Origin: Halostella limicola
Lineage (GTDB): Archaea; Halobacteriota; Halobacteria; Halobacteriales; Natronoarchaeaceae
DNA length: 64,000 bases
Reading direction: 5' to 3'
Assembly (NCBI RefSeq): GCF_003675875.1
Contig: NZ_RCDI01000003.1
Coordinates: 186,001-250,000 of the forward strand
Every line of letters starts with the position of its first letter. The first letter of the stretch is position 1. The position numbers were made by a program, and so were the translations under genes. Positions 2,607 through 50,922 of this stretch are shown in pieces. The notes under the pieces were generated by a model. It was not told where the DNA came from, did no database searches, and saw only the letters and a list, made by a program, of their open reading frames with translations.

Positions 2607-3527
2607 ATGAACGGCAAGCGCGTGCTCGTCACCGGCGGTGCCGGATTCATCGGGTCGAACTTGGCGAACCACCTCGCCGAGGAGAACGACGTGGTCGTCG
2701 TCGACGACCTCTATCTCGGCACGCCCGAGAACCTCAGAGACGACGTGGAGTTTCGCGACGCGAGCGTGCTGGACGAGGACCTGCCGACCGAAGGAGTGGA
2801 CGTGCTGTTCCACCTCGCGGCGCTGTCGTCGTACAAGATGCACGAGGAGGACCCGAAACGGGGAGCGCGAGTCAACGTCGAGGGGTTCGTCAACGCCGTG
2901 GAGCAGGTCCGCGAGGAGGGGTGTGACACGGTGGTCTACGCTTCGACGTCCTCTATCTACGGGGACCGCACCGAACCCTCGCCCGAGGCCATGGACGTGA
3001 ACGCTCGAACCGGCTACGAGGCCTCGAAGCTCTCGCGCGAGCAGTACGGCGACTACTTCTCGTACCACTACGACATGTCGATGGCGGGGATGCGCTTCTT
3101 CAGCGTTTACGAGGGGTTCGGTGGGGCGGAAGAACACAAGGGCGAGTTCGCCAACCTCATCGCGCAGTTCGCCGACGACATCGCCCACGGCGAGTCGCCG
3201 GTCATCTACGGCGACGGTACGCAGACCCGTGACTTCACCCACGTCGACGACATCGTCCGCGGTCTCGAGCTCGCGGCCGATCACGAACTCGACGGCATAT
3301 ACAACCTCGGCACCGGCGAGTCCTACAGTATCAACGAGCTGGTCGAGCGCCTGAACGAGGAACTCGGGACGGACGTGGAACCCGAGTACGTCGAGAACCC
3401 CATTCCCGAGAAGGTGTACGTCCACGACACGATGGCCGACATCTCGAAGATGAAAGCGGCGACCGGGTGGGAACCCGAGATAAGCTTCGGAGAAGGTCTC
3501 GAGCGGGTCTGCTCGCACTACGAGTAA
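2607..3527 (+). CDS. NAD-dependent epimerase/dehydratase (UDP-glucose 4-epimerase-like SDR)
   Basis: 306 residues. Start chosen at ATG 2607 because the Rossmann motif T-G-G-A-G-F-I-G-S then falls at residues 9-17, as in extended SDR enzymes; the frame is open for nine more codons upstream. The catalytic Y-x3-K is Y137-E-A-S-K141, with the Ser/Thr triad of Y-A-S-T-S-S-I-Y-G at 111-119. The family interconverts nucleotide-sugars such as UDP-glucose/UDP-galactose, or dehydrates them, feeding surface glycan and protein glycosylation. The exact substrate cannot be read from the sequence. No other glycan genes are adjacent, and it is followed by a small membrane protein on the opposite strand. Confidence 0.85.
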   Translation: MNGKRVLVTGGAGFIGSNLANHLAEENDVVVVDDLYLGTPENLRDDVEFRDASVLDEDLPTEGVDVLFHLAALSSYKMHEEDPKRGARVNVEGFVNAVEQVREEGCDTVVYASTSSIYGDRTEPSPEAMDVNARTGYEASKLSREQYGDYFSYHYDMSMAGMRFFSVYEGFGGAEEHKGEFANLIAQFADDIAHGESPVIYGDGTQTRDFTHVDDIVRGLELAADHELDGIYNLGTGESYSINELVERLNEELGTDVEPEYVENPIPEKVYVHDTMADISKMKAATGWEPEISFGEGLERVCSHYE

Positions 3528-48746: not shown

Positions 48747-49943
48747 ATGGATCGCAATCCCGACGACCCGCCGGAGGTCGGTGAGCTCACACCGCCGGAC
48801 AGGACGCTGATGGGGCCCGGACCGAGCGACGTACACCCCCGGGTGCTTCGGGCGATGAGTACCCCGCTGGTCGGACACCTCGACCCGTCGTTCGTCGAGA
48901 TCATGGACGAGGTGCAGGAACTGCTCCGATACACGTTCCGCACCGACAACCAGTGGACCATCCCCGTCTCCGGGACGGGATCGGCGTCGATGGAGGCGGC
49001 CATCGGCAACCTCGTCGAGCCCGGCGACACCATGCTCGTCCCGACGAACGGCTACTTCGGCGGGCGCATGGAGAGCATGGCCGAGCGCGCCGGCGGCGAG
49101 GTGGTCCACGTCGACGCACCGTGGGGCGAACCGCTCGATCCCGCCGACGTCGAGGCGGCGTTCGCCGAGCACCAGCCCGACGTGTTCGGGTTCGTCCACG
49201 CCGAGACGAGCACGGGCGTGAAGCAGCCGGACGTCCCGGAACTGACCCGGATCGCCCACGAGCACGACGCGTACGTGATCGCCGACTGCGTCACGTCGCT
49301 GGGCGGCGTCGAGCTGCGCGTGGACGAGTGGGACGTCGACGTCGCGTACTCCGGGCCGCAGAAGTGCCTCTCCTGTCCCCCGGGCGCGAGCCCGCTCACC
49401 CTGAACGACCGGGCGATGGACAAGGTGCTCTCCCGCGAGGAGCCCGCCCGCTCGTGGTACCTCGACCTCTCGCTTTTGGAGGGGTACTGGGGCGACGAGC
49501 GCGCCTACCACCACACCGCGCCGATCACGAACGTGTATGCGCTCCGCGAGTCCCTGCGGCTAGTCGCCGAGGAGGGCATCGAGAGCCGCTGGGAGCGCCA
49601 TCTGGAGGTCGCCGGCGCGCTCAAGGCCGGCGTCGAGGCGATGGGCCTGGAGATGAACGCGCCGGACGACTACTGGCTCCCGAGCCTCAACGCCGTGCGC
49701 GTCCCCGACGGCGTCACCGACGGCGAGGTGATCGAGGCCCTGCTCGACGACTACGACCTGGAGATAGCAGGCGGCCTCGGCGACCTGTCGGGCGAAATCT
49801 TCCGCATCGGCTGTATGGGTCACTCCGCGAGCCCGAAGAACGTCTCGTTCCTCATGAGCGCGCTGGGCGACGTGCTAGACAGAAAAGGCGCGGACGTGGA
49901 CGTCGACGCCGGCCTCTCGGCGACGAGCGACCGCCTCGGCTAG
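48747..49943 (+). CDS. Class V aminotransferase (serine-pyruvate/alanine-glyoxylate type)
   Basis: 398 residues from ATG 48747 (M-D-R-N-P-D-D); nine more codons are open upstream from a TTG. L-M-G-P-G-P-S-D-V-H-P (21-31) is the N-terminal signature of alanine-glyoxylate aminotransferases, V-S-G-T-G-S-A-S-M-E-A is the PLP phosphate loop, Asp180 in V-I-A-D-C-V-T contacts the pyridine nitrogen, and the Schiff-base lysine is Lys206 in Y-S-G-P-Q-K-C-L-S-C-P-P-G. It transfers amino groups between alanine or serine and glyoxylate or pyruvate. Its stop overlaps that of the next, convergent gene in one CTAG. Confidence 0.92.
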   Translation: MDRNPDDPPEVGELTPPDRTLMGPGPSDVHPRVLRAMSTPLVGHLDPSFVEIMDEVQELLRYTFRTDNQWTIPVSGTGSASMEAAIGNLVEPGDTMLVPTNGYFGGRMESMAERAGGEVVHVDAPWGEPLDPADVEAAFAEHQPDVFGFVHAETSTGVKQPDVPELTRIAHEHDAYVIADCVTSLGGVELRVDEWDVDVAYSGPQKCLSCPPGASPLTLNDRAMDKVLSREEPARSWYLDLSLLEGYWGDERAYHHTAPITNVYALRESLRLVAEEGIESRWERHLEVAGALKAGVEAMGLEMNAPDDYWLPSLNAVRVPDGVTDGEVIEALLDDYDLEIAGGLGDLSGEIFRIGCMGHSASPKNVSFLMSALGDVLDRKGADVDVDAGLSATSDRLG

Positions 49944-50260
49944 ACGGCGGTGTCGCGGCAGGGCGGCGCGCGGACGACCTCGTACTCGTCGTCGTCCTCG
50001 ACGCAGATGATCGCCCACTCGTACTCCGGCTCCGAGCGCTGGAGGCGGTCGCGGAGACGCGGGGCCTGTTCACGGTAGGTGACGAAACAGCGGAGTCGTC
50101 CGGAGTCGGGGGTCTCGTCGGCGTCTTCGGTTACCGTCACGCGGACGGACTTCCACTCGCGTTCGGCGCGGAACTCCTCGCCGTCGCCGGTGACGGTGTA
50201 CCCCAGGTCGTTGAAGATCGATCTGGCCTGTTCGTCGAGGGGCGTGCTAACAGGTCCCAT
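49940..50260 (-). CDS. Conserved haloarchaeal protein (DUF7116-like), function unknown
   Basis: 106 residues from ATG 50260 (M-G-P-V-S-T-P-L); a TATA-like AACTTATTAC (50284-50293, minus strand) 24-33 bases upstream supports this start, and rules out the longer frame to 50464 which runs through a mobile-element remnant. The protein is soluble and acidic, with L-D-E-Q-A-R-S-I-F-N-D-L-G-Y-T-V near the start and Y-E-W-A-I-I-C-V-E-D-D-D-E-Y-E-V-V near the end, a pattern I associate with an unnamed haloarchaeal family. No reaction or ligand can be proposed. Confidence 0.75.
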   Translation of the reverse strand: MGPVSTPLDEQARSIFNDLGYTVTGDGEEFRAEREWKSVRVTVTEDADETPDSGRLRCFVTYREQAPRLRDRLQRSEPEYEWAIICVEDDDEYEVVRAPPCRDTAV

Positions 50261-50302
50261 TCGATACCGGATACCACGTCTCGGGTAATAAGTTTTCTCA
50301 CA

Positions 50303-50334
50303 CGACAGCTGTCGAAAGCATCCGACGGCTGTCA
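50303..50334 (-). promoter_or_regulatory. Palindrome and imperfect repeat upstream of the 50260 promoter
   Basis: CGACAGCTGTCG (50303-50314) is a perfect 12-bp palindrome about ten bases upstream of the TATA box of the minus-strand gene starting at 50260. A second, imperfect copy CGACGGCTGTCA begins at 50323, twenty bases later, which is two helical turns on the same DNA face. Regulatory role inferred. Confidence 0.5.
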
Positions 50335-50412
50335 TAGGGACTGCTGTAAGGCATTTCGGTATTTCGGCGACCGGGTCGCCGAATACCACTGAACAGTTAC
50401 AGCAGTCCCTAT
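50334..50412. mobile_element. MITE-like element with 16-bp terminal inverted repeats
   Basis: ATAGGGACTGCTGTAA (50334-50349) and TTACAGCAGTCCCTAT (50397-50412) are perfect 16-bp inverted repeats enclosing 47 bases. Inside, GGTATTTCGGCGACC (50358-50372) folds on GGTCGCCGAATACC (50374-50387) with one bulge. Taking TA (50335-50336 and 50410-50411) as the target duplication leaves a 73-base core with GGGACTGCTG ends, as expected of a non-autonomous relative of a TA-targeting (IS630/Tc1-mariner-like) element. No transposase is encoded. It lies directly after the stop codon of the DUF5816 gene. Confidence 0.75.
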
Positions 50413-50651
50413 CACTCGTGGGCGGCGTCCCACTCGGTCGGCTTCCGGAAGTTGCCGCAGACATTGCACTCGATGCGCCCCATCGAGTCCATCGCGTTGT
50501 CGAACGTCTCGCAGTTGGCGCAGAACCAGCCGTACTTGCGCTCGCGGTCCGGCGTCAGGTAGGCGACGAAGAAGGGGCCGTCAGAGCCGCGCTCGGCCGC
50601 CTCCCGATCGACGTGTACGGTGTCGCCCTCCGGCGTCGTTCGCGTCTCCAT
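50412..50651 (-). CDS. DUF5816 family zinc-ribbon protein
   Basis: 79 residues. W-F-C-A-N-C-E-T-F-D-N-A-M-D-S-M-G-R-I-E-C-N-V-C-G-N (about 41-66) gives a Cys4 zinc ribbon with the spacing C-x2-C and C-x2-C. The N-terminal G-P-F-F-V-A-Y block and C-terminal P-T-E-W-D-A-A-H-E match the haloarchaeal family I know as DUF5816. The function is unknown; small ribbons of this kind often bind nucleic acid or protein. The last base of its stop codon lies at the terminal repeat boundary of the MITE-like element, so the natural 3' end may have been altered by the insertion. Confidence 0.85.
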   Translation of the reverse strand: METRTTPEGDTVHVDREAAERGSDGPFFVAYLTPDRERKYGWFCANCETFDNAMDSMGRIECNVCGNFRKPTEWDAAHE

Positions 50652-50922
50652 GGGTCCGGGGTAGGAGCGCCAGTCGCTTAAGACCTGCCTGTGCGGCGAC
50701 TACCGCCGACGCCGCGCCGACCCCGAAGGCCGGGAAGAGTCCGTATATCCGGTAATACCGGCGTCTCGACAGTCTTCGCGACCATCGAGTTTATGCCTGT
50801 CCGGGGACTGAATCCCACATCGACTACCCGTTCGCGCGGTGTTTCAGGGACTACGGGGCCGTAACGGTCGCTTACGGGGAGGGATCGACCGATACGGTAA
50901 TGACCCGCCGCGAACAAGTACC

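Follow-up and report, generated by a model that had tools for sequence, protein, structure and literature searches.

The locus comprises two genes on the minus strand, a DUF5816 gene (50412..50651) and, downstream of it, a DUF7116 gene (49940..50260; PF23429, E 1.3e-34). The name given to the former gene by the first-pass annotation was confirmed by its match to PF19133 (E 3.3e-37). An AT-rich block, TGTGAGAAAACTTATTACCCG (50282..50302, minus strand), precedes DUF7116 and is considered promoter-like on the basis of its position and conservation. A mobile hairpin element of 77 bp (50335..50411, minus strand) is described here on the strand of the DUF5816 gene. It matches the R2 covariance model (see below) with 80.4 bits (E 7.6e-20) and is the only copy recognized by this model in the window, i.e. 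the whole 64-kb stretch of DNA that was analysed. The typical size of elements of this family is about 79 bp.

Perfect 15-bp outer arms, TAGGGACTGCTGTAA (50335..50349, plus strand) and TTACAGCAGTCCCTA (50397..50411, plus strand), enclose an inner hairpin whose core (50363..50383, plus strand) has 10-bp perfect arms and a 1-nt loop. Both the inverted repeat and the inner hairpin reported earlier are thus present, but the arms are 15 rather than 16 bp long and the element spans positions 50335-50411. The sixteenth pair, A50334/T50412, is part of the TCA triplets flanking the element and lies outside it; it had been counted because the last A of one triplet and the first T of the other happen to pair. 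The folding energy of the RNA from positions 50334-50412 is −46.5 kcal/mol, as compared to −19.7 ± 3.25 kcal/mol for shuffled sequences (Z-score −8.25, none of 200 shuffles folding as well).

The TGA stop codon of DUF5816 (50412..50414, minus strand) is the first copy of a target duplication, the second copy being the TGA at 50332..50334 on the same strand (TCA on the plus strand). The TA duplication considered in the first-pass annotation had to be discarded: TA forms the outermost bases of the hairpin element, the duplicated sequence is the 3-bp TGA, and the empty sites of sister species carry a single TGA. In filled sites there are two, and in empty ones the downstream bases run straight on. 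Five pairs of filled and empty sites are clear (L034/L139, L043/L178, L029/L170, L031/L161 and L063/L177), and two are less clear (L086/L171 and L075/L153). At the stop of DUF5816 itself, the copy in the Halostella genome G002 is decayed; the site is empty in three further genomes, with TGA in G001 and G003 and TAA in G004. The stop therefore predates the insertion, and the window copy inserted before the split from the nearest sister, G002. The edge of the element does coincide with the DUF5816 stop, as had been noted, because the stop was the target; since it exists in genomes lacking the element, the element as its source is ruled out.

These sites also bear on the possibility that the hairpin is an integron attC-like recombination site following a cassette gene. 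The resemblance, which lies in an imperfect hairpin whose interior varies and which follows immediately on a stop codon, is outweighed by the presence or absence of the element alone at its sites, by the occurrence of both orientations and by the duplication of TGA, and we regard such a site as extremely improbable.

The mobile element had also been suspected of altering the promoter of its neighbour. The duplicated TGA of the window copy stands 29 nt upstream of the promoter-like block of DUF7116. This block is kept in five Halostella genomes and is closely similar in G000 with the element, G002 with the decayed copy, and G001, G003 and G004 without it. Conservation with or without the element speaks against a changed promoter, and the proposal that the element supplied a new transcript end or altered the DUF7116 promoter is unsupported. 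A small palindrome, GACAGCTGTC (50302-50331), is situated between the element and the block; it is seen in G002 and is absent from G001, G003 and G004.

For the genome searches, the R1 covariance model was built from the interior of nine copies of the window's own genome, with flank letters excluded. In this genome, six places were found by blastn and 16 by R1. R1 matches occur in 14 of 40 relatives, with about 51 places in G004 among the matches listed. A broader model, R2, was used for the class and phylum scans. Within the class, it matched 186 of 391 genomes, representing 51 of 86 genera; copy numbers from the class scan are lower bounds because at most 12 candidates were scored per genome. 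In the phylum sample, 22 of 294 genomes matched, and all 22 belong to the same order. The family is a Halobacteriales mobile hairpin dispersed across many related genomes. Rfam, searched with positions 50000-50800 of the window only, yielded no family at the gathering score and one chance-level match far below the cut-off, and one long pattern tried on viral contigs gave zero matches. No TGA-targeting haloarchaeal hairpin was described in those parts of the literature that the search covered, which leaves its absence from print unproven.

Further, the flanks of 94 fetched copies were compared. This set consists of the best-scoring or listed copies from Halostella and relatives from the order and does not include all R1 matches in relatives. 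On the gene strand, the left flank is mostly TGA, and on the right either TGA or one of its decayed forms, e.g. CGA, is found. We then searched the named genomes with an arm pattern devoid of flank letters (80 loci listed out of 118 stretches). Among the matches listed, TGA/TCA adjoins the arm at 57 of 61 haloarchaeal places, and the partner arm is present at 55 of 61. The corresponding numbers for non-haloarchaeal chance places among the matches listed, which include one locus from a bacterial MAG (L306), are 0 of 21 and 0 of 21. The initial description of the element as MITE-like and mobile is upheld by the many copies, the empty sites, the target duplication and the random orientation.

Positions of the copies relative to genes were determined using gene calls from a simple script based on codon log-odds, and hence are approximate. 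A called stop lies at most 2 bases from the element start in 67 of the 94 copies. In three more (L048, L071 and L096) the gene reads through the flanking triplet and ends at the element's own TAG, so the element can serve there as a back-up stop. In total, 70 of 94 copies are at a called gene end and none is inside a called gene; for the window's own genome, 15 of 16 copies are at stops. The stop-borne copies are oriented randomly relative to the gene (36 same, 34 opposite). A readthrough or selenocysteine signal was set aside, given that TAG often follows the TGA in frame.

The excess at stops persists against a background of CTGA sites, whether the region is convergent (29:4 vs 46:34, p 0.002) or tandem (41:15 vs 87:170, p 8e-8), the p-values being approximate because the background loci overlap in part. 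The base preceding TGA is C in 0.85 of stop insertions and in 0.84 of insertions elsewhere, as compared to 0.63 of background stops. T following TGA is avoided by stop insertions (0.03 vs 0.27).

One reading of this excess is that the insertion machinery itself picks stops, e.g. via translation termination or mRNA 3' structure. It agrees with the approximately five-fold excess over CTGA sites, seen even in convergent regions without promoters, and with the observation that two stop codons have each been hit in two species by copies differing in orientation or dialect (L033 in G000 and L106 in G004; L105 in G004 and L120 in G001). However, non-stop insertions prefer C before TGA as well. The proportion at stops is also lower in other samples. 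In a sample rich in Natrialbaceae, stops account for just 29 of the 57 usable copies among the matches listed (4 of 61 sites near the locus edge were dropped), which nevertheless exceeds the 10–18% expected under the null; the stop preference therefore differs by group. In the class scan, 12 of the 25 top-scoring copies from other genomes are at called stops. G296, a relative of Natronosalvus hydrolyticus, has 15 copies that are nearly identical, with 13 pairs fully so, and these mark a recent burst. Only 4 of these 15 young copies are at called stops; target choice is therefore probably supplemented by retention. We hold it unlikely that the machinery itself selects stops.

A target preference for TGA preceded by C and not followed by T, together with better survival at stops than elsewhere, would account for the excess more readily. 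The survival component is suggested by small numbers obtained with an approximate gene caller. In G004 the arms of stop-borne copies are more diverged than those of other copies (medians of 5 and 4 edits, respectively; p 0.004), but the pooled test of arm divergence for stop-borne and other copies is weak (p 0.06). The share at stops did not differ significantly between copies with arms having at most two edits and those with more than two (p 0.59).

The arms contain compensatory changes. We counted 409 double-changed cells, as compared to 141 ± 14 after shuffling, with both strands of most copies taken as rows. Arm dialects follow genome groups, e.g. GGGACTGYTGTAA in Halostella, GTGTTTATTGTAA in G039 and CTGTCGGCTGTAA in G035. 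A conserved 3'-UTR RNA structure (a terminator, an mRNA stabilizer or a processing signal) that was copied and then selected could in principle produce this pattern, as well as the strong fold and the placement at gene ends. Nevertheless, compensatory changes are likewise expected of a mobile palindrome, the orientation is random, and copies also occur in intergenic and divergent regions. The 3-bp duplication with empty sites and the decay of the G002 copy at the same stop are further points against such a structure, to which we ascribe a very low probability.

In G296 the loop occurs both ways inside near-identical arms (8:7; L205-L233, odd numbers), and in G267 it is likewise found in both orientations (L204-L232, even numbers). 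A hairpin or cruciform intermediate would leave such a mixture, and so would recombination of the arms with each other.

A full-length insertion sequence with the same ends, the search for which had been proposed, was not found in the loci examined. Specifically, no long element with family ends was found in G004, in G267 or at weak or unpaired named loci, and none was found at 30 DDE_Tnp_1 loci of seven genomes. Neither an autonomous element nor a transposase linked to the family was found in the loci examined. Two candidates for longer versions were rejected. The apparent 800-bp version at L234 (G267) consists of an ordinary copy and a lone end, and the apparent 1.4-kb version at L132 is a copy with a cargo segment inserted in one arm. 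This segment of approximately 1.3 kb (about 3060-4370 of L132) contains ORFs, has no recognized transposase and is bordered by AAATGAC on both sides; its ends are IS6-like.

Mobilization of a REP/REPIN-like element by an IS200-type Y1 (RAYT) transposase would also fit the small palindromic doublet, extragenic location and high copy number, and 18 of the 20 high-copy genomes do contain Y1_Tnp. Still, the other 2 of these 20 lack it, as do 6 of 8 element-bearing genomes, G004 and the single-contig G030 among them. Of 24 Y1 loci, just one lies near an element match, and this match is weak (22.9 bits). Moreover, Y1 enzymes are not expected to generate a 3-bp duplication. Movement by such an enzyme seems quite improbable.

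The observations are very probably explained by a non-autonomous, transposase-free mobile hairpin that inserts into TGA and combines a target preference with survival at stops. Insertion into TGA takes place in either orientation, mostly within CTGA, and doubles the triplet. Where the target is the TGA stop of a gene, the stop survives through this duplication, and hence the gene is unharmed. An enzyme acting in trans may recognize the folded or paired arms, and the loop, being found inverted with respect to the arms, hints at a hairpin or cruciform intermediate. A wider version is offered tentatively, as a possibility with the chances against it: transposase-free hairpins throughout the order may be served by an undescribed trans-acting system employing a hairpin or cruciform intermediate, stops being safe or chosen TGA landing sites. 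The preferred interpretation, that of a non-autonomous TGA-inserting hairpin, would mean that haloarchaea harbour a widespread mobile-repeat family defined by its structure, TGA duplication and stop-codon landing sites, and that many stop-adjacent hairpins may be explained without invoking terminators. The dialects, the orientation-free insertion and the loop inversion open the mechanism of movement to testing; the question is which enzyme is involved.

Several known systems provide a comparison. Like MITEs, the TGA hairpins are short, non-coding and dispersed, with terminal inverted repeats and a target duplication with empty sites. They differ in that no parent transposon sharing their ends was found in the loci examined and in that their arms vary by genome group, with compensatory changes. 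The element works like a MITE, but the autonomous parent transposon that defines one was not found in the loci examined; hence it is named MITE-like. SMR-A and SMR-B of Haloquadratum walsbyi are 80–110 bp long and carry prominent inverted repeats at their termini that show no relation to known transposons; in the available text of their description, they have no coding capacity, SMR-A shows strong target preference, and their mobilization is called enigmatic (PMC3119063). Compared by description and not by sequence, the TGA hairpins share with SMRs the haloarchaeal hosts, short length, inverted-repeat ends, lack of coding capacity and target preference. In contrast, SMRs are reported in that text without target duplication and target other mobile elements, whereas the hairpins duplicate TGA and occur at gene stops or intergenic TGA (PMC3119063). 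REP/REPIN elements with RAYT, as far as the consulted portions of the sources describe them, are likewise small palindromic extragenic repeats (PMC3733652, PMC3116915); the hairpin family differs in that several genomes rich in the element lack Y1/RAYT. A bacterial parallel is provided by GTAG-REP, whose ends, according to the part of the paper available, often supply the TAG stop of flanking ORFs, whereas the stop at the hairpin is TGA, pre-existing and duplicated (PMC3733652).

Individual loci show additional arrangements. L109 contains two element copies, at 1396-1473 and 1501-1580, separated by 27 bp. At L268, L281, L286 and L324, a solo arm end directly follows TGA and the second arm is not recognizable; these are probably deletion remnants. 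The right arm of a copy at L133 houses another, distinct palindromic element (about 3000-3160) with arms TAGTAGCGCTTGCAA and a repeated TA at its edges. Finally, the right flank of L068 (G004:C1 near 713477-713592) contains a second dispersed repeat of approximately 80 bp, which recurs with 76–94% identity at over 20 other places in G004.
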